24,251 nucleotides of DNA from a virus: positions 1 to 24,251 of the IMG/VR virus record IMGVR_UViG_3300005294_000073; one strand, given 5' to 3'. Each line of letters begins with the position of its first letter. Position 1 is the stretch's first letter. The translations under genes were made by a program, and so were the position numbers. This document shows positions 8,354 through 23,016 of this stretch, in pieces. The notes below the pieces were generated by a model. The model did not search any database. It was given only the letters and a program-made list of their open reading frames with translations, and was not told where the DNA came from.

Positions 8354-9253
8354 CTAACTATTTCCCATATAGGCGGTCCGCCAGTCACCATAGACATGGT
8401 TGTAGGCCGCGTGGAACTTGAAGAAATACGTCCCACCATCTGGACCATGCGGATCGAACCAGGTTGCTTGCAGATTGGGTTTCTCGCGCATGACGACGAT
8501 GATCGGCTTGACGTTTTCGGTGGAGGCGACCAGGATCCAGGCCGTGCTATCCAGCTGTGGAGCAACGATGTGCTTCACGACTCCCGCATATTGATTACCC
8601 TTGGTGGGATCATCACTGCCGCCTCGGACCGCCGTGATCTGCCAGGCGACGTTCGCCAGGTCAGGCGACACAACCAGCAAATCGTAGGTGTACTGAGTGA
8701 ACACACCCTGATCGTCGCGTGTTTTCTGTGCCTTTGTATAGACGGTCGGGAAGTTCGTGGTGCTCAAAGTCAGCGCGTCCAGGTTGTCCTGGACTGTCTG
8801 GTAGGCAGCACCCTTGTCGACGTGAGCGTTATTGAAAAACGACAGCCCGTCGTAGCCTGCGCCGAAACTGGGGGTCCCATCGCCATCGTTCAAGGCCTGG
8901 TAGGCTTGCTGGGCGATGTGGCGCTGGAAGTTATCGCCGGCAGCGCGGGCACGCTTTTCCAACTGCCCGGTCTTGTCGTCGCGGACGGCATTGTAGGAGA
9001 TCATCACTTCGATATCCCAGTCGAGCGGCTTGACCGGCAGGGTCTTCTCGATGAAACCCTGGATGTTCGGTTGGCCTTTGGTCTGGGTCGGCATGGGCGC
9101 GCCGCCGATATCCACCAGGTCGATGGCGTTGGCGGGCATATCATAAGTCGATGCAATCGGAGCATAGAGAGGGACGGGTGGCTGCGCGCTGGTTAGAAAA
9201 CCAGTCTGGGCGGCCATCTTGAGCAGGGTAGGGACTTCGCCACTAATAGTCAT
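8354..9253 (-). CDS. Major capsid protein, Mu gpT-like
   Basis: The protein has 299 residues and AAGGAG before ATG 9253. Its pattern fits the gpT major head subunit family: an N-terminal helix-rich arm, DWDIEVMISYNAVRDD, a run GDNFQRHIAQQAYQALNDGDG, YDGLSFFNNAH, LLVVSPDLANVAWQ, and the C-terminal TAWILVASTENVKPIIVVMREKP followed by FKFHAAYNHVYGDWRTAYMG. It forms the HK97-fold capsid shell. It comes after protease/scaffold and decoration genes and ends just ahead of a strong terminator, as is usual for this highly expressed gene. Confidence 0.9.
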   Translation of the reverse strand: MTISGEVPTLLKMAAQTGFLTSAQPPVPLYAPIASTYDMPANAIDLVDIGGAPMPTQTKGQPNIQGFIEKTLPVKPLDWDIEVMISYNAVRDDKTGQLEKRARAAGDNFQRHIAQQAYQALNDGDGTPSFGAGYDGLSFFNNAHVDKGAAYQTVQDNLDALTLSTTNFPTVYTKAQKTRDDQGVFTQYTYDLLVVSPDLANVAWQITAVRGGSDDPTKGNQYAGVVKHIVAPQLDSTAWILVASTENVKPIIVVMREKPNLQATWFDPHGPDGGTYFFKFHAAYNHVYGDWRTAYMGNS

Positions 9254-11400: not shown

Positions 11401-11952
11401 TTACAAACCTGTTCGACCGAAAAACTCATGAGCCCATTGAAAAGCTATGCCTGCATTTTTGGCACACTGTTCATCTTCGGGACGATCACCGACAAACAAA
11501 CTATTGTCCCAATCCACGATAATGCCTGCTTCAAATGCTTCAACTTCGCACAAAGCCAACATGCCGATATCAGGCTTGCGAAGTAGTGAGCGATGGTTAT
11601 ATGGCTCCACTTTTCCAAAGGGATGATGGAAGCAGGATTTTATGATATGGAATGGATTCTCGAAAAACAAGGCGAGCATCGCGTCCAGTTCTGCAAGATG
11701 ATCATTATGAGTTTTGAAGCCATAAGCGACACCGCCTTGATTGGTAATACCGAAAACCAAATAACCCTTGTTGCGATATTCCCATAACTTGGGTTCAACA
11801 CCTTCAAATAAAGCTACGTCTTCGGGCTTGTTGATAAACTCGCCGTTCTTGGAATAGCGAATCGTGCCATCCAGGTCAAGGCATAGGGCGGGGGCGACTT
11901 TATCAGGAACAAGTGTCACGGTCCTTTTTTGAGCGTCGATAACTGTTTTCAT
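11401..11952 (-). CDS. HAD phosphatase, GmhB / histidinol-phosphatase type
   Basis: The protein has 183 residues with AAAGGTGA before its ATG. HAD-IIIA motifs are clear: motif I LDLDGT (D26, D28), motif II GITNQGG (T70, N71), the RKPDIGM lysine (K126), and motif IV VGDRPEDEQCAKNAGI (D156). GmhB enzymes have a Cys-rich zinc loop with paired cysteines near RKP; here only C107, H109 and H110 are left and the second Cys pair is missing, so the substrate may differ. A DNA 3'-phosphatase role is another option. It sits between the minor head and protease genes, is AT-richer than they are, and is followed by a terminator: a moron-like insertion. Confidence 0.88.
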   Translation of the reverse strand: MKTVIDAQKRTVTLVPDKVAPALCLDLDGTIRYSKNGEFINKPEDVALFEGVEPKLWEYRNKGYLVFGITNQGGVAYGFKTHNDHLAELDAMLALFFENPFHIIKSCFHHPFGKVEPYNHRSLLRKPDIGMLALCEVEAFEAGIIVDWDNSLFVGDRPEDEQCAKNAGIAFQWAHEFFGRTGL

Positions 11953-14775: not shown

Positions 14776-16335
14776 TTACTCCCATGGGGATCTGTAACCC
14801 TCGACTTTTCCAAGACCTTCGGCGGCGCTCCAGTCGACGCCGATGAACACAGACCACCACGCAATGGCGACTGCATCGGCACAATCAGGGGAACGTCCCA
14901 GTCTTTTGATAATCTCTTCTTTACTCTCAATGTAGATCTTGCCTGTTCGGATCTCCCATTTTGGTGCACATAAATCACCCAGCAATTCCTTGTCAGGAGG
15001 CAAAGCAAGCGTTGCTCCGTAATCAGGATCCAGTGCCTCGCGTAATTTCCAATAAGCTTCCGCGCGGATGTTTGCAAACTTAAACTTTTTACTCTTGTCG
15101 AACTTATCGGAGCCTCTACCGAAATTCACGCCAATCACGGCTCTTTCGCCATCGTTCATCGCATCGTAGGCAGCCGCACCGATACCAATGACGTCCACGC
15201 CGATGATTGGTTTATGTTTCTCTATGATGATCTGCCCTGCCAACATGGCAACGGTTTTACCGTCCGGGGTTGCCGCGCCGGGGTATTTCTTCAGTTCATC
15301 AAATCTGTCCCCGCGCAATGGCGCAAGCACTGTTTTGTCATTACCCCCTCGCGCGACATCTATTCCGATCGAGGTGATTCGTAGACCTGCTTCGCTGTTG
15401 AGCCAGCGCTCTTGCGCGGCGCGCACCCATGCGGCGGGTATCACCTGGAATGGGTCAACGATCTTATATGCGCCGAACTTGCCTTTGAGCAGTGTCCGGA
15501 TCGGCTCCGGCATGGCATCAATGGTCGAGCCGTATCCCGTCGCCTCCAGGATCGGGTTGTCCGAAAGCTTGGCATGAAAGAACGTGCGACTCTTGGGAGA
15601 GATGATTTCCCCTTCATGTTCGAAAGGCTCTTTGCTGGGACGCTCAACTTCCTGGCCGTCCACCATGGCAAACCAACGCAACTCGCCATCTTTAGCAGGG
15701 GAGGGATGTGTGTCATCTAACCACGGCGCGAAGTAGCGCGTCACCCATTCGCCAGCTTCGTCCATCGGCGGGTTGAACGTCATAACCACACGGCATTTTT
15801 GCCCCTCGCGCGTCGTGCGGTTCCAGCCCGTCACGAAGCGGACTTGTGTCTCCGTGAATTCCGTCGCTTCATCAAAGCCGTAGAAATCAAATGGGCGACC
15901 TTGAAAGTTCTTTTTATCGTTCTCGTATTGCATCGCCGCCAAACGAACCGTCCGACCCTCCGTCAATTCCCACCTGTGTAAGGATTCATTGTAGCGGTCT
16001 TTCTGGCGGTTTTGGGAATCCTGGTTATAGATCTCTCGGCTGCGAGCCTCGATGCCTTCCAGAAGTGGAAATATTCGTCGAAAGATGATCGAACGGTGAT
16101 GCTTCGTACCGGCAAAACCGAGCAGCAGATCTGTCTTGCCCCCACCCGCCGCGCCACCATATCCGATGACATCCGCGTCGGACTCGTACGCGGCTGTTTG
16201 CGGGCCTGCCTGAGGCGTCCACGAAATCCGGACATTACTCAGAAGGTCATCGAGTTCGTCGCGCTCTTGCGGCGTCAAGAATTGCCACAACTCTCGCAAC
16301 TCGCTGCTCGTCGGTAATTGGGTTTCCTTCGTCAT
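14776..16335 (-). CDS. Terminase large subunit
   Basis: The protein has 519 residues. The ATPase half has Walker A GYGGAAGGGKT (58-68) and Walker B FYGFDEA (D155, catalytic E156). The nuclease half has an RNase H-like fold with D326 in IGIDVARGG, D381 in GVDVIGIG and the SPDCADA aspartates at 484 and 487. It powers DNA packaging into the prohead and cuts the genome at the end. ATG 16335 sits next to GGAGAAGG within the small terminase gene. A sampled 60-base stretch (14881-14940) holds only 23 G or C bases, less than the neighbouring glycan and portal genes, which suggests a mosaic origin. Confidence 0.97.
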   Translation of the reverse strand: MTKETQLPTSSELRELWQFLTPQERDELDDLLSNVRISWTPQAGPQTAAYESDADVIGYGGAAGGGKTDLLLGFAGTKHHRSIIFRRIFPLLEGIEARSREIYNQDSQNRQKDRYNESLHRWELTEGRTVRLAAMQYENDKKNFQGRPFDFYGFDEATEFTETQVRFVTGWNRTTREGQKCRVVMTFNPPMDEAGEWVTRYFAPWLDDTHPSPAKDGELRWFAMVDGQEVERPSKEPFEHEGEIISPKSRTFFHAKLSDNPILEATGYGSTIDAMPEPIRTLLKGKFGAYKIVDPFQVIPAAWVRAAQERWLNSEAGLRITSIGIDVARGGNDKTVLAPLRGDRFDELKKYPGAATPDGKTVAMLAGQIIIEKHKPIIGVDVIGIGAAAYDAMNDGERAVIGVNFGRGSDKFDKSKKFKFANIRAEAYWKLREALDPDYGATLALPPDKELLGDLCAPKWEIRTGKIYIESKEEIIKRLGRSPDCADAVAIAWWSVFIGVDWSAAEGLGKVEGYRSPWE

Positions 16336-16810
16336 CCTTCTCCGTAAATAAATTGTGATGCTTGCCGATCAGTTCCAGGGCTTCCTTGGCGCTGTAGACT
16401 TCTATCTTGAAACCGCCGGCGGACGCGGGTGTGATCGACTTGATCAGGTGACCATATTGCTCAAACGTTTCTGGCTTGAGCCGCACCATTTGACGATCAC
16501 CCATGTAGGTTCCCTCTTTGTCCAGGATGGGCACATCATAGAGCTCCGTGAGTTCAGCCATGTTTGTGCGTGCCATATCCGCCAGGCGAGCCATGACCTC
16601 CTCCTGCTCCATCAATTTATCCTTCATCAGCTCCTTGATTCGTGCCCGAATGTCTAGTTTTGACAAGTTTTGGGAAGCTATTTTCCTGGCTGTCTTTTTG
16701 GAATAGCCGGCTTCGATCGCAGCGCGCGTGCCATTCCAGTTGACGACATACGCTCTGCAAAAGGCGTCTTCCCTATCGGTCAGGGTCTTTCCCTTCGGTG
16801 GCTTTGGCAT
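16247..16810 (-). CDS. Terminase small subunit
   Basis: The protein has 187 residues and starts at ATG 16810, four bases after the fusion gene stop. The N-terminus TDREDAFCRAYVVNWNGTRAAIEAGYSKKTARKIASQNL is the classic helix-turn-helix opening of the Terminase_2 family (TerS), which binds the packaging site on phage DNA and hands it to the large subunit. Residues 45-130 are helical and would form the oligomerisation core. The C-terminal arginine-rich tail (DAARARRTR) is likely the part that touches the large subunit. It overlaps the large terminase gene by 89 bases. Confidence 0.93.
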   Translation of the reverse strand: MPKPPKGKTLTDREDAFCRAYVVNWNGTRAAIEAGYSKKTARKIASQNLSKLDIRARIKELMKDKLMEQEEVMARLADMARTNMAELTELYDVPILDKEGTYMGDRQMVRLKPETFEQYGHLIKSITPASAGGFKIEVYSAKEALELIGKHHNLFTEKDDEGNPITDEQRVARVVAILDAARARRTR

Positions 16811-16814
16811 GCCG

Positions 16815-18926
16815 TTACCGTCGTAACGCCTCCACGATCTGCAAATAGTATGCTGGCAAAACGAAGTCCTTCACGTGACCCTTCGCGCCGCGGGCATATA
16901 GAACGATATTCTGCCGGTACCAAAATTCCATTTCCTCGCAACTCCGGATGTCCGGCTGATGCCAGGCGGGCCCGAATCCCTCCTGGGCAAACAGATCCGC
17001 CCACCAGGATTGCCATTGCTCGTTGACATGCCCGGTCCCGCCCTGGCGGGGAATGGCAGCCGAGAACAAGACTCGGTCCGACAGGGAGCACAGAAAGTGG
17101 ACCAATCCTGCCGCGCGACTGGGTTTCAGATGCTCAGCCACTTCCAGGCACAGGCACAAGTCGAATGTGCGGTCCAGCTGGGGGAACTCCCGGTTGAGGT
17201 CGCATTCGACGAGCCGCTCAGGCAGGATCAATAAGTCCTCGCGCCTCACCCGGTAGTCGACCCCGGTGTAATCCGAGTGCCCATTGCTCCATTCGCCCAC
17301 GCCACAGCCGATGTCGACGATCGATTTCGGTTTGATACCGATTTCACCCAGAGCGCGCATAACCACACGGGCAGAAGCAATGCTCCCTTCGCTGATGGCG
17401 TCGTAATAACGCGTGGTGTATTGGTGACGCCAGGACCAGGTGCCGATATATTCACGAAGCGTGCGCTGATCCATCCGTCTGATCTTCTCGATCTCCTCGT
17501 TGTTATGCTGGAAGTACGGATTGCTTGGGGTCGAGTCGGGCCCGACCCAGTGGTTCATGTGGAAGAGCGATCCCCTTACGCGACGGATATCGAAGCCCAG
17601 GATCTTCGCCCGGTCGTGCCGCTCACAGTCCTCCGGCCCAAACGAGATGAAGTTTTCGTTCTCCATCCCCGCATCAATGAACGATTCCTTGTTCCACAGC
17701 ACTGCACCGCCCACGCTGTTGTGGTCAAGCGTACGGCCTTTGAAGACCGTATTCCCCACGATCCCAATATCGCGTGCGCCATGGATCCGCGGCCACCAGT
17801 CCTCCCGACGCATGCGAGCAAAACGACCATCATATGGGTAAACCATATCCGCGCCTGCCCGCAAGCTTTCCACAGCCATCAGGATCTGCGCGGGCGGAAT
17901 GATCACATCCACGTCCCAATTGGCGATGTAGGGCGTTTCCGCCGAAACGGCCATGTCGTTGAGCATCTTCGTCCGGTGAAACACATCCGAGTCCAATGTC
18001 ATATACTTGCCCCACTGAGCGGTGTACTCAAATTTATTTCCGCCCTGCTCGCAAAAGATGTAGTTTGCATCGATGGAGGATTGGAGCATATAGAGGATCA
18101 GATTAAGATTTTCCTTCCGGTGTTCATGGTCATAGCGGAGAGGGATGGTAAACGTCAGGTCGCGCAGCGGGATTTTATACGACTCTCTCTTGTACTCCGT
18201 CCAGCGCGCGGGGCGGTAGTCACGGATGTCCTTGCGTGCCAGGTGACCGGCATACATGTGCCCGCTGTGGATGATCTTCGAGTGGGATTTCTCTCCAAAC
18301 CAGGCGCACCACCAGCCAAAGGAGGAATTCGAGATAATGAAATGATCGCAGGCGCTTGCCAGGGCCAGGTCCTGGATGTCAGTATTGGATGAGGAGAAGT
18401 AGGCGTTAGGCAAGCCCTCGAACATCGTCCGGCAGTATTCGATATCGTCGGACGTGATCAGCAGGTTGAAGTCCTGCCAGTTGGGAAAGTGGGTCACCAG
18501 TGCATCAAGATAGAAATTCGGGGAGAGTTGGTAATAACCCGGGTTGCCGACATAATCGCCGCGGCGGACCTGGATGCAAATTGTTTCTCGCTGGAAAACA
18601 TCGAAGGCCGCTTTGCATTCCTGGACGAAAGAAGGCTTGAGCTTCAACCGCTGCGTGCCGAAGTATTTCTCGCTCTGCATATAGCCCAACAGGTCGCAAT
18701 CCCCGTGCAGGTCCCATTCGTAGTGGTGGAAGAATCGCTCCTCGACTTGAGTCGTCTGCAGGGGACCGTGAGGGATCTCGGTTTCGAAGTATGGCTCATA
18801 TGCCCAGGCGGGGAAGGCAGCCTGCGCGCCGTGCTTTTCGGCGAGACCCATCGTGGAGGCAATCTGAAAGAGCTGGTTGCCCAGGCGGCCGTATTTGCCG
18901 AGCTGAGAAAAGGAAATCGTGGTCAT
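16815..18926 (-). CDS. Three-domain GT11 fucosyltransferase / GT-A / methyltransferase fusion
   Basis: I place the start at ATG 18926, which overlaps the previous TAA; a GTG 15 bases earlier is less likely. The protein has 703 residues in three parts. Residues 1-245 resemble GT11 alpha-1,2-fucosyltransferases: GRLGNQLFQ at 13-21, IQVRRGDY at 118-125 and SNSSFGWWCAWFG at 199-211. Residues 255-480 look like a GT-A glycosyltransferase with a DVD metal motif at 338-340 and a Glyco_transf_7C-like stretch GGAVLWNKESF (406-416) plus PEDCERHDR. Residues 495-703 are a SAM methyltransferase: VDIGCGVGEW at 537-546 and CLEVAEHL at 593-600. All key motifs look intact, so one chain could add two sugars and a methyl cap. 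Acceptor and exact sugars are unknown. Confidence 0.9.
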   Translation of the reverse strand: MTTISFSQLGKYGRLGNQLFQIASTMGLAEKHGAQAAFPAWAYEPYFETEIPHGPLQTTQVEERFFHHYEWDLHGDCDLLGYMQSEKYFGTQRLKLKPSFVQECKAAFDVFQRETICIQVRRGDYVGNPGYYQLSPNFYLDALVTHFPNWQDFNLLITSDDIEYCRTMFEGLPNAYFSSSNTDIQDLALASACDHFIISNSSFGWWCAWFGEKSHSKIIHSGHMYAGHLARKDIRDYRPARWTEYKRESYKIPLRDLTFTIPLRYDHEHRKENLNLILYMLQSSIDANYIFCEQGGNKFEYTAQWGKYMTLDSDVFHRTKMLNDMAVSAETPYIANWDVDVIIPPAQILMAVESLRAGADMVYPYDGRFARMRREDWWPRIHGARDIGIVGNTVFKGRTLDHNSVGGAVLWNKESFIDAGMENENFISFGPEDCERHDRAKILGFDIRRVRGSLFHMNHWVGPDSTPSNPYFQHNNEEIEKIRRMDQRTLREYIGTWSWRHQYTTRYYDAISEGSIASARVVMRALGEIGIKPKSIVDIGCGVGEWSNGHSDYTGVDYRVRREDLLILPERLVECDLNREFPQLDRTFDLCLCLEVAEHLKPSRAAGLVHFLCSLSDRVLFSAAIPRQGGTGHVNEQWQSWWADLFAQEGFGPAWHQPDIRSCEEMEFWYRQNIVLYARGAKGHVKDFVLPAYYLQIVEALRR

Positions 18927-19330
18927 TATTTCTTGTTCCACGGCTTGAAGTTTTTCAATGTTTTGATGCTTGGAAATGTGCCGTTGAATGTGAGTACCCG
19001 ATCATCCAAGCCTACAAATGCACTGGGTTTGGATGAAGGAAAGTCGATATTCAGGATCAGTGCTGTGCGAGGTCGAGCAAGATTCGGATGATCGTTCCAG
19101 TATGCGGCGTCCCACTTTGCCAGCCATTCCCGCATCGCTTCGTTGCCACTCAGGGCTTCACTGCGTGTGGAGTAGATGCAAACATTGAAATGTTCGATCG
19201 CCTCGTAGAGAAATTCAATGGCACCATCGACCGGCGGATCAGGGATCACGTCGATACCTTTCCAGCCAGAAGTATAGGAATGGATGACACCATCGAAGTC
19301 GAGACAAAGGATAGGCTTCTGGTCTGGCAT
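18926..19330 (-). CDS. Small HAD-superfamily phosphatase, phage type
   Basis: I choose ATG 19330, preceded by GGCAGG, rather than a TTG six bases earlier; this gives 134 residues. HAD motif I is CLDFDGVIHSYT (nucleophile D11, acid/base D13). IYSTRSEAL gives motif II (T/S), and the GLDDR stretch gives the C-terminal acidic motif. No cap domain fits in this length. Proteins of this compact form (DFDGVIHSYTSGWKG-like N-terminus) recur in phage genomes and are annotated only as HAD hydrolases. It may act on a nucleotide or sugar phosphate. It follows the helical protein gene and its TAA overlaps the ATG of the large fusion gene, so it is in the same operon. Confidence 0.85.
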   Translation of the reverse strand: MPDQKPILCLDFDGVIHSYTSGWKGIDVIPDPPVDGAIEFLYEAIEHFNVCIYSTRSEALSGNEAMREWLAKWDAAYWNDHPNLARPRTALILNIDFPSSKPSAFVGLDDRVLTFNGTFPSIKTLKNFKPWNKK

Positions 19331-19332
19331 TC

Positions 19333-19515
19333 TCAACCTGCCATTCCCAAAACATAGGCCATATAGTAAGCCATCATCTTTTCGTATTCGGTAATGGTGA
19401 CCTGAATACGGCGCGCCTGTTCGCTCCGCTCTTCTGGCTTGATCTTCCGCAGAGCTTCAAGGGTTTCCTGCATTTTTTGTAAAACCTCTTCCGCTTCGTT
19501 TACCATCGTATTCAT
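19333..19515 (-). CDS. Small helical protein of about 60 residues
   Basis: It starts at ATG 19515, overlapping the upstream stop as ATGA; a second ATG at 19506 has a better-placed AAAGG and would give 57 residues. The protein is predicted to be almost all helix: a charged heptad-like N-half (EEVLQKMQETLEALRKI) and an aromatic, Met-rich C-terminal helix (EKMMAYYMAYVLGMAG). That fits a two-helix hairpin. It is also in the -1 frame relative to the zinc-ribbon gene, so it could be made as a frameshift extension of it. No family is recognised. Confidence 0.6.
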   Translation of the reverse strand: MNTMVNEAEEVLQKMQETLEALRKIKPEERSEQARRIQVTITEYEKMMAYYMAYVLGMAG

Positions 19516-19849: not shown

Positions 19850-20503
19850 TCACCACTCCAGTTGTTTGTTCCCCTTGCACAGCAAAGGGGTTTCATCGGT
19901 AACAGTACACTCGAAATCAATCACGTCACTCGCGCTGCTGTGCGGGTTCCAGATCACGAATCCGTGCGGACACTTCCGGACCACATGCTCGACGTACCAG
20001 GCTTTTGTCTCATCGTCGAATTCCCCGAGGGCGTAGAAGGAAACGCAGAAATCGTAAGATCTCGGGTATTGGAAATGAGGAAGCGATAATCCAGTCTGCC
20101 TCTCCACTTCTGATAGATATTTATCCTGGAATTCTTTGACCTCATCCAGATCGAAGATGTAGTATCTGCCTGTATACCCCAGCGCGCGCAAGGTGGCATA
20201 GAACTGTCCCACACCCCCACCGATCTCCACGATGGATGACGGGTGTCGCTCGATCACCTTCTGCGCGTAGTGAATCATACGCAAGGCCGTCCCGGAGATC
20301 CCTGAAGGCTGACTTCGCCCGATGCTATCGATGCGGGTCAAGAGCTCCAGATCCACACCCTGGGGGGTTGGCCCGGGCCACTCGATCTCACCGAGCATGC
20401 GCTTGACCATCGGGTGATCTTTGAAATTGTGGACCGTGGAGGACGCGAGCGCTTCTATCCATTGCTGATACTCATGCTCCAGCCAGGCTTTATGATCGCT
20501 CAT
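19850..20503 (-). CDS. SAM-dependent methyltransferase, sugar O-methyltransferase-like
   Basis: The protein has 217 residues. A helical N-terminus of about 85 residues is followed by a Rossmann methyltransferase: motif I VEIGGGVGQF at 92-101 and an acidic strand end IFDLDEV near 117-122. The later stretch with FYALGEF matches the post-II region. The long N-terminal helical cap and GGGVG form are typical of putative sugar O-methyltransferases found in surface-glycan clusters. It overlaps the glycosyltransferase gene by 14 bases and has AGAGGTGG before its ATG. With a GT-B enzyme before it and a glycosyltransferase fusion after it, methyl capping of a glycan is the likely role; the acceptor is unknown, and a small-molecule methyltransferase cannot be excluded. 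Confidence 0.82.
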   Translation of the reverse strand: MSDHKAWLEHEYQQWIEALASSTVHNFKDHPMVKRMLGEIEWPGPTPQGVDLELLTRIDSIGRSQPSGISGTALRMIHYAQKVIERHPSSIVEIGGGVGQFYATLRALGYTGRYYIFDLDEVKEFQDKYLSEVERQTGLSLPHFQYPRSYDFCVSFYALGEFDDETKAWYVEHVVRKCPHGFVIWNPHSSASDVIDFECTVTDETPLLCKGNKQLEW

Positions 20504-21497
20504 CTATCCACCTCTCCAATATGTCGACCGCGCGCCGGGCACTGTGTCCGACATAGGGATATAGATCGGCGATCGCTTGGCGCCGTTCCTGCAGGCAGAT
20601 CGTTGCGTATTGTTCGAGTGTCTGATCTATCGCGTCGAATAATTCAAAGGGACTTTCCACGTTGATCCCGACATCCGAGTAATCCCAGAACCGGATCCCC
20701 CAGTGGATCTCTCTCCGGAACCAGGGCGCATTGAGCACGACGACCGGCTTGCCGGTCAAGAGAAACTCATACATCGTCGAGGACAAATCGTTGAGATAGA
20801 TATCCGCCAGGCGGCAGACCTCCCGGAAGTCTTCCACCCATTCGATTCCCACTCGCTCGAATGCCTCCCGGTAGATTGGCGCGGCCAGCGGGTGACTATG
20901 ACCGATTACCTGATAACGCTCCCCTAGCGCGAGCAGAATATCCTTGTAATGTTCCCAGGCGGAGCCGGATTCGGGTGGGTTCTCGTTTCTATTTCCCCAG
21001 TGGAAGGCGATTGCCAGCACAGGGCGACCGGGATCGACCGGGCGGGTCACCGGGACCCATTCCGAAAGATAGGCATCCATCTTCGGCGTGCCGATGACTG
21101 CACAGGGAGTTTGTCGGACCGCGCGGAAATGCCGGGCTACGTATTCATTTGGCAGGAGGGCAAAGCTGGCCCGGTCCCGATTCCCGATTGTCCCGTTCGG
21201 ATAGGCGGCCGTCCCGAATCCCTGGGTAACCCCGTGCTCGATGGTGATGATCTTGCGCTGCGGGTTGCGGATGACCTTGTTAAGATCACCATAAGCAGCG
21301 ACGATGATGGGGTTGTCGCCAGCAGGGATACCGCCCTGAAAGATTTCCAGGCGCGGCTCCCGGAGCTCCTGCCGCGCATAAGACTCGAGTTCCTGGGCAA
21401 TGTGGAACACGCCACGCCGCGCGTGTGGTAGGGCGTTATACACAGGCGCCATGTGATCGACATAATGAGGGCGGCGAGCAAAGAAGTCGAGCTGCAT
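20490..21497 (-). CDS. CDP-glycerol glycerophosphotransferase-like GT-B enzyme
   Basis: I place the start at ATG 21497, which overlaps the upstream TGA by one base and follows an AGGAGG six bases upstream; this gives 335 residues. An upstream in-frame start at 21536 would lie inside the previous gene. Motifs fit the TagB/TagF family of wall teichoic acid-type transferases: TIEHGVTQG with H88, IGHSHPLA with H200 and H202, and a donor-binding region LNDLSSTMYEF (D237, S239, S240) followed by GKPVVVLN. Family members move glycerol phosphate or related polyol or sugar units from CDP-linked donors to a glycan or lipid acceptor. At 335 residues this is the catalytic GT-B half only, with no extra membrane-binding N-terminus. 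The exact donor cannot be read from the sequence. Confidence 0.82.
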   Translation of the reverse strand: MQLDFFARRPHYVDHMAPVYNALPHARRGVFHIAQELESYARQELREPRLEIFQGGIPAGDNPIIVAAYGDLNKVIRNPQRKIITIEHGVTQGFGTAAYPNGTIGNRDRASFALLPNEYVARHFRAVRQTPCAVIGTPKMDAYLSEWVPVTRPVDPGRPVLAIAFHWGNRNENPPESGSAWEHYKDILLALGERYQVIGHSHPLAAPIYREAFERVGIEWVEDFREVCRLADIYLNDLSSTMYEFLLTGKPVVVLNAPWFRREIHWGIRFWDYSDVGINVESPFELFDAIDQTLEQYATICLQERRQAIADLYPYVGHSARRAVDILERWIDERS

Positions 21498-22039
21498 CAG
21501 GGTCCTCCTCGATTCAAATACAATTGGAATAGCCACCAGATAAAGGCGATGGTCCCGGTAACCGCGCCGACTGAGAGACTGACCAGCACTGCTTTGATGA
21601 TCGACCGCTTGAGATCGAGAAGGAAGGCCGCGGACTCGTCTTTCCGTCGCTTCTCAATGTCTGAGAGAGCCGAAGCCGCGGCGGCTTTGTACTTGTCTCC
21701 GGTATCCTGGTTTTGATCCTTTATATTCTGCTTCTGTGAGATCTTCGACTCAATCGCCCTGAGATTCTCTTCGGCGACCTTTCTCTCCCGCTCCGCTTCT
21801 TCGATCTCAAGCTCAAGTCTCTTTAATCGACTGTCAGAGGATTCCGCCTCGATCAATTGCAGAAGCTCGAGGATCTTGATATCGTTCCTTTGCATGATCG
21901 CGAGCCGGTTCGATTGCTCTTCCAGTGTGCTCGAAATCCGCTTCGTCATGGTGTCGATCAATGTGAAAAGCCGGGCGCCATCCTGCGCGGTAAATGGATC
22001 GGCGGGCCTAGGGGTGACGGGGATATCTTCCTTTGTCAT
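21497..22039 (-). CDS. Coiled-coil protein with C-terminal membrane anchor
   Basis: The protein has 180 residues. After a Pro-rich start, residues 22-65 are helical and residues 65-110 form a highly charged Glu/Arg/Lys coiled coil. A single hydrophobic segment at about 149-173 (SLSVGAVTGTIAFIWWLFQL) is preceded by Lys/Arg and followed by a short basic tail, so it is probably a tail-anchored inner membrane protein. The layout (coil, then one C-terminal membrane helix) recalls XhlA-type phage lysis accessory proteins, although those are much shorter. A partner role with the adjacent HD-GYP regulator is another option, because the two genes overlap as ATGA. Function is unknown. The gene's TGA overlaps the next ATG by one base. 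Confidence 0.75.
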   Translation of the reverse strand: MTKEDIPVTPRPADPFTAQDGARLFTLIDTMTKRISSTLEEQSNRLAIMQRNDIKILELLQLIEAESSDSRLKRLELEIEEAERERKVAEENLRAIESKISQKQNIKDQNQDTGDKYKAAAASALSDIEKRRKDESAAFLLDLKRSIIKAVLVSLSVGAVTGTIAFIWWLFQLYLNRGGP

Positions 22040-23016
22040 CCTCGTCCCACCATCTCTACAAATGTGTCGACCACCTCCGGATCAAATGACTTATTGCGCT
22101 CCTCGAGCAGATACGCGATCACCTTTGCCTTCTCCCAGGAGGCGCGATAGGGTCGATCATTGCTCAGCGCATCGTAGACGTCCACAACGGCAAAGAGCCG
22201 CGCGGCAAACGGGATATTGTTCCCCATCAGCCCGAGGGGATAGCCGGTGCCGTTCCACTTCTCGTGGTGGGAGCAGGGAATGTCCAGGGCATCCTTGAGG
22301 AAAGGGATATTCGCCAGCATCTCGCATGCCAGGGTCGGGTGCATCTCGATGATCTGCCGCTCCTCCTCGCTCAGCACATCCCGCTTAAGCAGCACGGCAT
22401 CCGGGACGCCCATCTTGCCGACGTCGTGCAGGAGGGCCCCGCGATAGATGCTCTTGAAGTCCTCACCGCCGAGCTCGAACGCCCGTGCCAGGCGCAAGGC
22501 CAGGTCCGTCGTGCGTTCCGTGTGGCCCTGGGTATAAGTGTCGCGCAGTTCCAATGCTTTGCCCCAGGCCATGATCGTCTGCTCGTAGGCGATCTCCATC
22601 TCCAACCGATTCTGGGCGCGATTCTGTTTCGCTCGAAGCTCCCGTCGGATTGCCAGGATCAGACGGGGCATGCGGTCCTTTGTAATGAAATCCGAGGCGC
22701 CGGCTTTCAGCAATTCCACCGCCACGTCTTCCTGGACCGTTCCGGAGAAGACAATCAACGGGACATCCAGACCGCTCGCCCGCAGCAGTTCGAGTGCCCG
22801 GTACGGTGTAAAGCGCGGCATACGATAGTCACAAACAATCACGTCCCAGGCGCTCTCGAGCAAAGCGACCTGCATGGTCGCTCCCGTCTCCACGCGCTGG
22901 TGGGTCAGTAGGAACCCCGCACGTTTTAAGGCATCCACGATCAGATCCTCGTCTTCGCGCGAGTCTTCGATCAATAACATGAGCAGCCGGAGGGATGAAG
23001 ATGAAGTCGGGCTCAT
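22036..23016 (-). CDS. Response regulator with REC and HD-GYP domains
   Basis: The protein has 326 residues. Residues 10-125 form a receiver domain: acidic pair E17/D18, phospho-acceptor D63 in VCDYRMP, S91 in VFSGT and K113. Residues 145-320 form an HD-GYP domain: H165, HD at 197-198 with K201 (LLHDVGKMGVP), H226, HHE at 250-252 and GTGYP at 256-260. These are the metal ligands and signature residues of this family, which hydrolyses cyclic di-GMP to pGpG or GMP, so the enzyme looks intact. The receiver suggests control by a host histidine kinase; no kinase lies nearby. It shares ATGA junctions with both neighbours, so it belongs to the phage operon rather than to a stray host gene. A degenerate receiver that signals without phosphorylation is possible but not suggested by the residues. 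Confidence 0.92.
   Translation of the reverse strand: MSPTSSSSLRLLMLLIEDSREDEDLIVDALKRAGFLLTHQRVETGATMQVALLESAWDVIVCDYRMPRFTPYRALELLRASGLDVPLIVFSGTVQEDVAVELLKAGASDFITKDRMPRLILAIRRELRAKQNRAQNRLEMEIAYEQTIMAWGKALELRDTYTQGHTERTTDLALRLARAFELGGEDFKSIYRGALLHDVGKMGVPDAVLLKRDVLSEEERQIIEMHPTLACEMLANIPFLKDALDIPCSHHEKWNGTGYPLGLMGNNIPFAARLFAVVDVYDALSNDRPYRASWEKAKVIAYLLEERNKSFDPEVVDTFVEMVGRG

Follow-up and report, generated by a model that had tools for sequence, protein, structure and literature searches.

A GT11-like, a GT-A and a methyltransferase domain joined in a single protein encoded beside the terminase genes of tailed phages

What might a tailed phage do with a protein that carries the motifs of three different enzymes in one chain? 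The question is raised by a gene of the window, the 24,251-nucleotide stretch of DNA analysed here, which is a fragment of a tailed-phage contig whose minus strand carries the genes for packaging, the head and the tail. The sequence-only reading of this DNA had proposed, naming no strand, an open reading frame at exactly 16815-18926 in which the motifs of a GT11 fucosyltransferase-like, a GT-A and a methyltransferase domain follow each other. The ORF list and the translation bear this out, with 703 residues plus a stop codon on the minus strand (Table 1), and all of the quoted motifs are located in this order in the chain: GRLGNQLFQ at residue 13, IQVRRGDY at 118, DVD at 338 and VDIGCGVGEW at 537. 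A membrane segment was also looked for in the 703-residue protein and none was found.

Table 1. Positions in the window of the fusion gene, its domains and motifs, and the neighbouring genes
Feature	Position	Strand	Evidence
Terminase large subunit	14776..16335	(-)	phrog_979 E 2.6e-40
Terminase small subunit	16247..16810	(-)	PF03592 E 1e-27, phrog_51
GT11 - GT-A - methyltransferase fusion ORF	16815..18926	(-)	703 aa, coordinates include stop; ORF and translation
Class I SAM-dependent methyltransferase domain, residues about 501-703	16818..17426	(-)	PF13489, domain model
DIGCGVGEW SAM-binding motif, residues 538-546	17289..17315	(-)	Conservation
GT-A glycosyltransferase domain, residues about 247-500	17427..18188	(-)	phrog_15655, VIA-align, family profile
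HMNH, predicted metal-ligand histidine region, residues 456-459	17550..17561	(-)	Conservation
GPED (ED motif of GT-A enzymes), residues 430-433	17628..17639	(-)	Conservation
DVD metal-binding DxD motif, residues 338-340	17907..17915	(-)	Asp conservation
GT11 (alpha-1,2-fucosyltransferase-like) domain, residues about 1-246	18189..18926	(-)	PF01531, phrog_2644, BFVD
VRRGD, residues 120-124, HxRRxD-type motif core, His replaced by Gln	18555..18569	(-)	R121/D124 conservation
Small HAD-like gene upstream of the fusion	18926..19336	(-)	phrog_23773
Probable sugar O-methyltransferase (NanM-like)	19850..20503	(-)	TIGR04371 E 2e-10, just below cut-off
Glyphos_transf-like transferase	20490..21536	(-)	PF04464 E 1.7e-6, above cut-off

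The N-terminal domain matches the Pfam GT11 family (PF01531) over residues 81-221 (E 4.5e-21; 75.8 bits against a curated cut-off of 23.9) and the PHROGs glycosyltransferase family phrog_2644 over residues 3-243 (E 2.8e-41). Fut1_Fut2_like and viral alpha-1,2-fucosyltransferase models are among the BFVD structure matches to the full model; the BFVD list prints no ranges, and these fucosyltransferase-like matches are placed at the N-terminus by their names. Matches to the GT-A domain take up the PDB structure listings, the GT11 profile matched no PDB sequence, and the GT11 fold rests on the BFVD matches, Pfam and the motif. R121 and D124 of the HxRRxD-type motif are kept in 16 of 16 fusions, and the first Arg of this motif is reported to be critical in the enzyme WbsJ (PMC4202792). 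Its His, however, is a Gln in the 703-residue protein and varies among the fusions (Q, H, S, G, F); because this residue is not conserved we speak of a GT11-like domain and not of a proven fucosyltransferase. One row of the GT11 profile (L004, 3998-4813) turned out to be a GT-A and not a GT11, and the domain HMM was made without it.

The middle domain was the one for which structure prediction had been set beforehand as a test. In the AlphaFold model this part of the chain matches GT-A enzymes with VIA-align Z scores of 17-20: GalNAc-T2, a ppGalNAc-T (Z 19.7, rmsd 3.4, 225 aligned residues), the chondroitin polymerase K4CP (Z 18.7, rmsd 3.1, 212 aligned), WrtF (Z 17.1, rmsd 2.7, 194 aligned) and beta4-GalT1 (Z 16.9, rmsd 3.7, 203 aligned). 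In addition, a profile of the GT-A family matches beta4-GalT7 (E 3.5e-7). The residues expected of such enzymes are constant, with D338 and D340 of the DxD motif, E432 and D433 of the ED motif, and H456 and H459 all invariant in 17 of 17 sequences; both Asp residues of the DxD motif are also present in cyanophage homologues. Considering the modelled fold together with the DxD motif, the middle domain is best assigned to the GT-A superfamily. The more specific resemblance noticed in the sequence-only reading, to Glyco_transf_7C (PF02709), does exist at residues 404-459, but it scores 19.0 bits against a cut-off of 23, and although several relatives of the protein pass that cut-off we do not claim GT7 membership. 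The PHROGs family phrog_15655, which covers residues 253-501 (E 1.6e-41) and is now labelled "unknown function", can thereby be assigned concretely to the GT-A glycosyltransferases.

The C-terminal domain matches PF13489 (Methyltransf_23) over residues 520-648 (E 5.9e-8; 33 bits against a cut-off of 27), and D538, G540 and G544 of its SAM site are invariant in 17 of 17 sequences. When folded alone it gives a pLDDT of 88, and the top structure matches of this lone domain are the sugar methyltransferases CalS10 (Z 14.2) and TylM1 (Z 14.0), whose scores are tied within one unit with those of other small-molecule methyltransferases; these matches point to a resemblance of fold and do not prove a substrate. 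The model of the whole chain, predicted from an alignment of 17 fusion sequences, has a mean pLDDT of 90 and a pTM of 0.77. It is also loosely aligned by the BFVD entry A0A1V0S9B9 of Catovirus CTV1, a giant-virus protein annotated "Glycosyltransferase and methyltransferase domain protein". With a GT-A fold in the middle of the model, and with key residues present in all three pockets and lost from none of them across the fusions, the early impression of three intact domains is upheld, and predicted structure and conservation together support a multi-enzyme protein.

Is such a protein peculiar to this one phage? Viral contigs were scanned with the protein itself and with domain profiles, followed by HMM typing of every ORF, and the three domains occur in a single ORF at 25 loci. 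Once each contig and each protein is counted a single time, these comprise 16 distinct full-length fusions, the window's included, in contigs of uncultured phages from many metagenomes, plus contigs cut within the fusion. A 17th full-length fusion, a 760-residue ORF that is 39% identical, lies in a phage region of a contig from a Bacteroidetes MAG, with a terminase large subunit downstream. The same domain order, which the sequence-only reading had proposed to seek in other phages and bacteria, is therefore found well beyond the window. Among the named phage records, none covers 80% of the 703-residue protein. Identities to the window protein are 31-85% for the GT11 domain, 41-81% for GT-A and 25-81% for the methyltransferase, and across pairs of fusions the identities of one domain follow those of the others, with correlations of 0.89-0.94, a level reached in 0 of 2000 permutations; the three domains have therefore mostly been inherited together within the fusion family.

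On a longer time scale, the constant and old core is the GT11 and GT-A pair, while the third module differs between phages. The core is joined to a GT25 in L022 and L026, to a second GT-A in L050 and to an N-terminal GT6 with a GT2-like part in L038. The last two are themselves large multi-glycosyltransferase ORFs of phages, with 962 residues in L050 (3266-6151; GT11 and two GT-A copies) and 990 in L038 (1802-4771; GT6/GT2-like, GT11 and GT-A). An opposite order, with the methyltransferase first and then a weak GT-A-like match, is seen at L109 1899-3269 and also in L110, L111, L112, L115 and L116. In the non-fused phages G023, G024, G025, G027 and G030 a separate methyltransferase gene adjoins the GT11-GT-A gene, and in named cyanophages GT11 and GT-A are separate genes of the same cluster, often neighbours. 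That GT11, GT-A and methyltransferase occur both fused and as neighbouring genes speaks for a single pathway common to both arrangements. A core tree of 33 rows needs four changes between the methyltransferase-fused and non-fused states, at least three of them forced by well-supported branches, and with three to four changes a single origin of the methyltransferase fusion is not supported.

The genomic neighbourhood of the fusion is of two kinds. On one side are the packaging and virion genes of the window (small and large terminase subunits, portal, protease, the major head protein at 8354-9253 and tape measure), with the ATG of the small terminase subunit only 4 bases past the stop codon of the fusion. 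On the other side the TAA stop of the HAD-like gene overlaps the ATG of the fusion (TAATG), and further upstream lie the NanM-like and Glyphos_transf-like genes, which have homologues in 5 and 6 related contigs, respectively. Upstream of this sugar cassette, at 22036-23016, is a response-regulator-like gene (phrog_731, unknown function) with an HD-domain-like C-terminal part and a homologue at L192 4684-5682. The head gene cluster contains, at 11401-11952, a HAD-family phosphatase resembling histidinol/heptose-bisphosphate phosphatases and PNK3P.

The position beside the terminase is a recurrent one: in 10 of the 11 fusion records with a detectable terminase, the large subunit lies downstream of the fusion on the same strand. 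The distance is 0-3.2 kb in the window, G002, G003, G006, G007, G010 (a weak match), G012, G021 and the Bacteroidetes contig, and about 1 kb in G004, provided that this contig is circular; G011 is the exception. The terminases of L016, L021 and L106 are only 25-30% identical to that of the window, whereas their fusions are 82, 46 and 52% identical. L016, the closest, shares the portal and head genes of the window and differs there only in the terminase, while L021 and L106 have no portal or head match to the window at all. These comparisons suggest that the sugar cassette and the packaging genes have been reshuffled between phages with this order being kept. The large terminase subunit of L190 (4648-6087) is only 30% identical to that of the window (14776-16335) although the portal, protease and head proteins are shared, which looks like a terminase swap.

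From the gene, its domain order, folds, intact residues, conservation and synteny, which the analysis establishes, we infer the sugars, the order of the reactions and the target as follows. A single soluble, cytoplasmic protein would build the outer part of a short methylated glycan, most likely on a virion protein, an interpretation to which we give a little better than an even chance. A GDP-sugar would supply the GT11 domain with the deoxy sugar that it transfers, for instance L-fucose, the GT-A domain, which depends on a metal, would add a second sugar from a nucleotide sugar, and the C-terminal methyltransferase would methylate the glycan, in the simplest form as a terminal O-methyl cap. 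This addition of two sugars in sequence and then of a methyl group, which the sequence-only reading had envisaged, has a biochemical precedent in the chlorovirus protein A064R (PMC9614988). The nucleotide-sugar donors probably come from the host, since no Epimerase family gene was matched in 14 related records. As for the carrier, a virion protein (capsid, tail tube or tail fibre) modified before or during assembly is the most likely one because the gene is in the late packaging and head operon, although operon position is not proof of a glycan target.

The main rival to a virion target is that the enzyme modifies surface glycans of the host (LPS, capsule or lipid-linked precursors), perhaps as a block to superinfection. 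We regard this as unlikely, though it has to be taken seriously. The Glyphos_transf-like neighbour recurs beside the fusion, and the family that it resembles is known from wall polymer synthesis; moreover, three of the related contigs have integrase genes, which keeps alive the idea that a lysogen alters the surface of its host. Enzymes of the GT11 family are familiar from bacterial O-antigen and LPS synthesis (PMC4202792), and GT25, one of the alternative third modules, is by its Pfam name likewise tied to LPS synthesis. However, such a role fits poorly with a fusion protein that has no membrane segment and a gene that adjoins packaging genes, and no GtrA-type flippase is present in the 14 related records. 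Quite improbable, in our view, is a protein in which one or more domains are an inactive scaffold, so that it adds one sugar only or acts as a glycan-binding part. The replacement of the GT11 motif His by Gln would be in keeping with this, but hardly any change is seen in the DxD, ED and HxxH residues of GT-A, in the GT11 Arg and Asp or in the residues of the SAM site, even in members down to 25-41% identity per domain. A shade less probable again is the glycosylation of hypermodified bases in the phage DNA. Viruses are known to encode glycosyltransferases by which DNA is hypermodified with diverse glycans, as PMC12619734 cites from Pyle et al. 2024, but no thymidylate synthase family gene is found in the 14 related records, several of them fragments, by a search that detected its controls. 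The same records have no Tet_JBP match, but that search was run without a positive control and the absence is uninformative. Finally, an assembly or sequencing artefact, conceivable for a metagenomic contig, can be rejected, given the many independent full-length fusions described above and an overlapping contig that is 99.8% identical over 10.6 kb.

With a modified virion protein as the preferred target, how does the phage fusion compare with known systems? Its nearest analogue, although no sequence relationship came out of the comparisons made, is A064R of PBCV-1, a 638-residue protein with beta-L-rhamnosyltransferase, alpha-L-rhamnosyltransferase and 2-O-methyltransferase domains (PMC9614988, PMC7826918). 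In vitro work has demonstrated the activities of A064R, which jointly make the methylated end of the N-glycan of the PBCV-1 capsid (PMC9614988). Both proteins are single soluble viral chains in which a class I methyltransferase comes after two glycosyltransferase domains. They differ in the N-terminal domain, which is GT11 in the phage fusion and a GT-A rhamnosyltransferase of solved structure in A064R, and in their setting: an algal virus with a capsid glycan as target in the one case, a phage with a putative virion target in the other. A search of the fusion protein against PDB sequences matched no glycosyltransferase chain, the sole match at an E of 0.1 being a methyltransferase. Because the first domain lacks homology to that of A064R, we consider that the phage protein works like A064R without being filed as a member of its family. 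A second PBCV-1 protein, A111/114R (860 residues; galactosyl-, xylosyl- and fucosyltransferase; PMC7826918), also has three transferase domains per chain, including a fucosyltransferase. Unlike the phage fusion, however, it has no methyltransferase, and its fucosyltransferase is C-terminal and modelled on an alpha-1,3 enzyme of H. pylori (PMC7826918).

Among phages, the cyanophages P-TIM68, S-SSM7, S-SCSM2R and others have homologous GT11 and phrog_15655-type GT-A domains in their sugar gene clusters, 27-31% identical over about 70% of the fusion protein. In these phages the two are separate genes with no fused methyltransferase, and nucleotide-sugar epimerases, absent from the fusion records, are often their neighbours. 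Mycobacteriophage glycosyltransferases (Che8 gp110, Corndog gp38) decorate capsid and tail tube proteins, according to Freeman et al. 2023 as cited in PMC12363180. This virion glycosylation by phage-encoded enzymes resembles the role that we propose, but no GT-GT-MT fusion is described for it in the literature searched. Nor did we find a phage fusion of this type elsewhere in the open-licence papers, and the GT11-GT-A-methyltransferase family of phages was not found described in these papers or in the libraries searched. The earlier remark that no such phage system had been described thus holds within this scope, whereas the GT-GT-MT design itself is already known from giant algal viruses.

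It is tempting to go a step further and to suppose that tailed phages have independently evolved a single-chain glycan assembly line, convergent with A064R, in which a GT11-GT-A core and an exchangeable third module (a methyltransferase, a GT25, a GT6 or another GT-A) build capped glycans on the phage's own virion proteins in the bacterial cytoplasm, and whose gene has stayed directly ahead of the terminase genes in phages that are only distantly related. We put this forward tentatively, as something that falls somewhat short of probable. If it is true, phage virion glycosylation would extend beyond single transferases to modular multi-enzyme chains across distantly related phages. Glycosylated phages could then be traced by the fusion, soluble glycosyltransferases that carry out several steps could be drawn from it, and it would be an example of convergence with the giant algal viruses.
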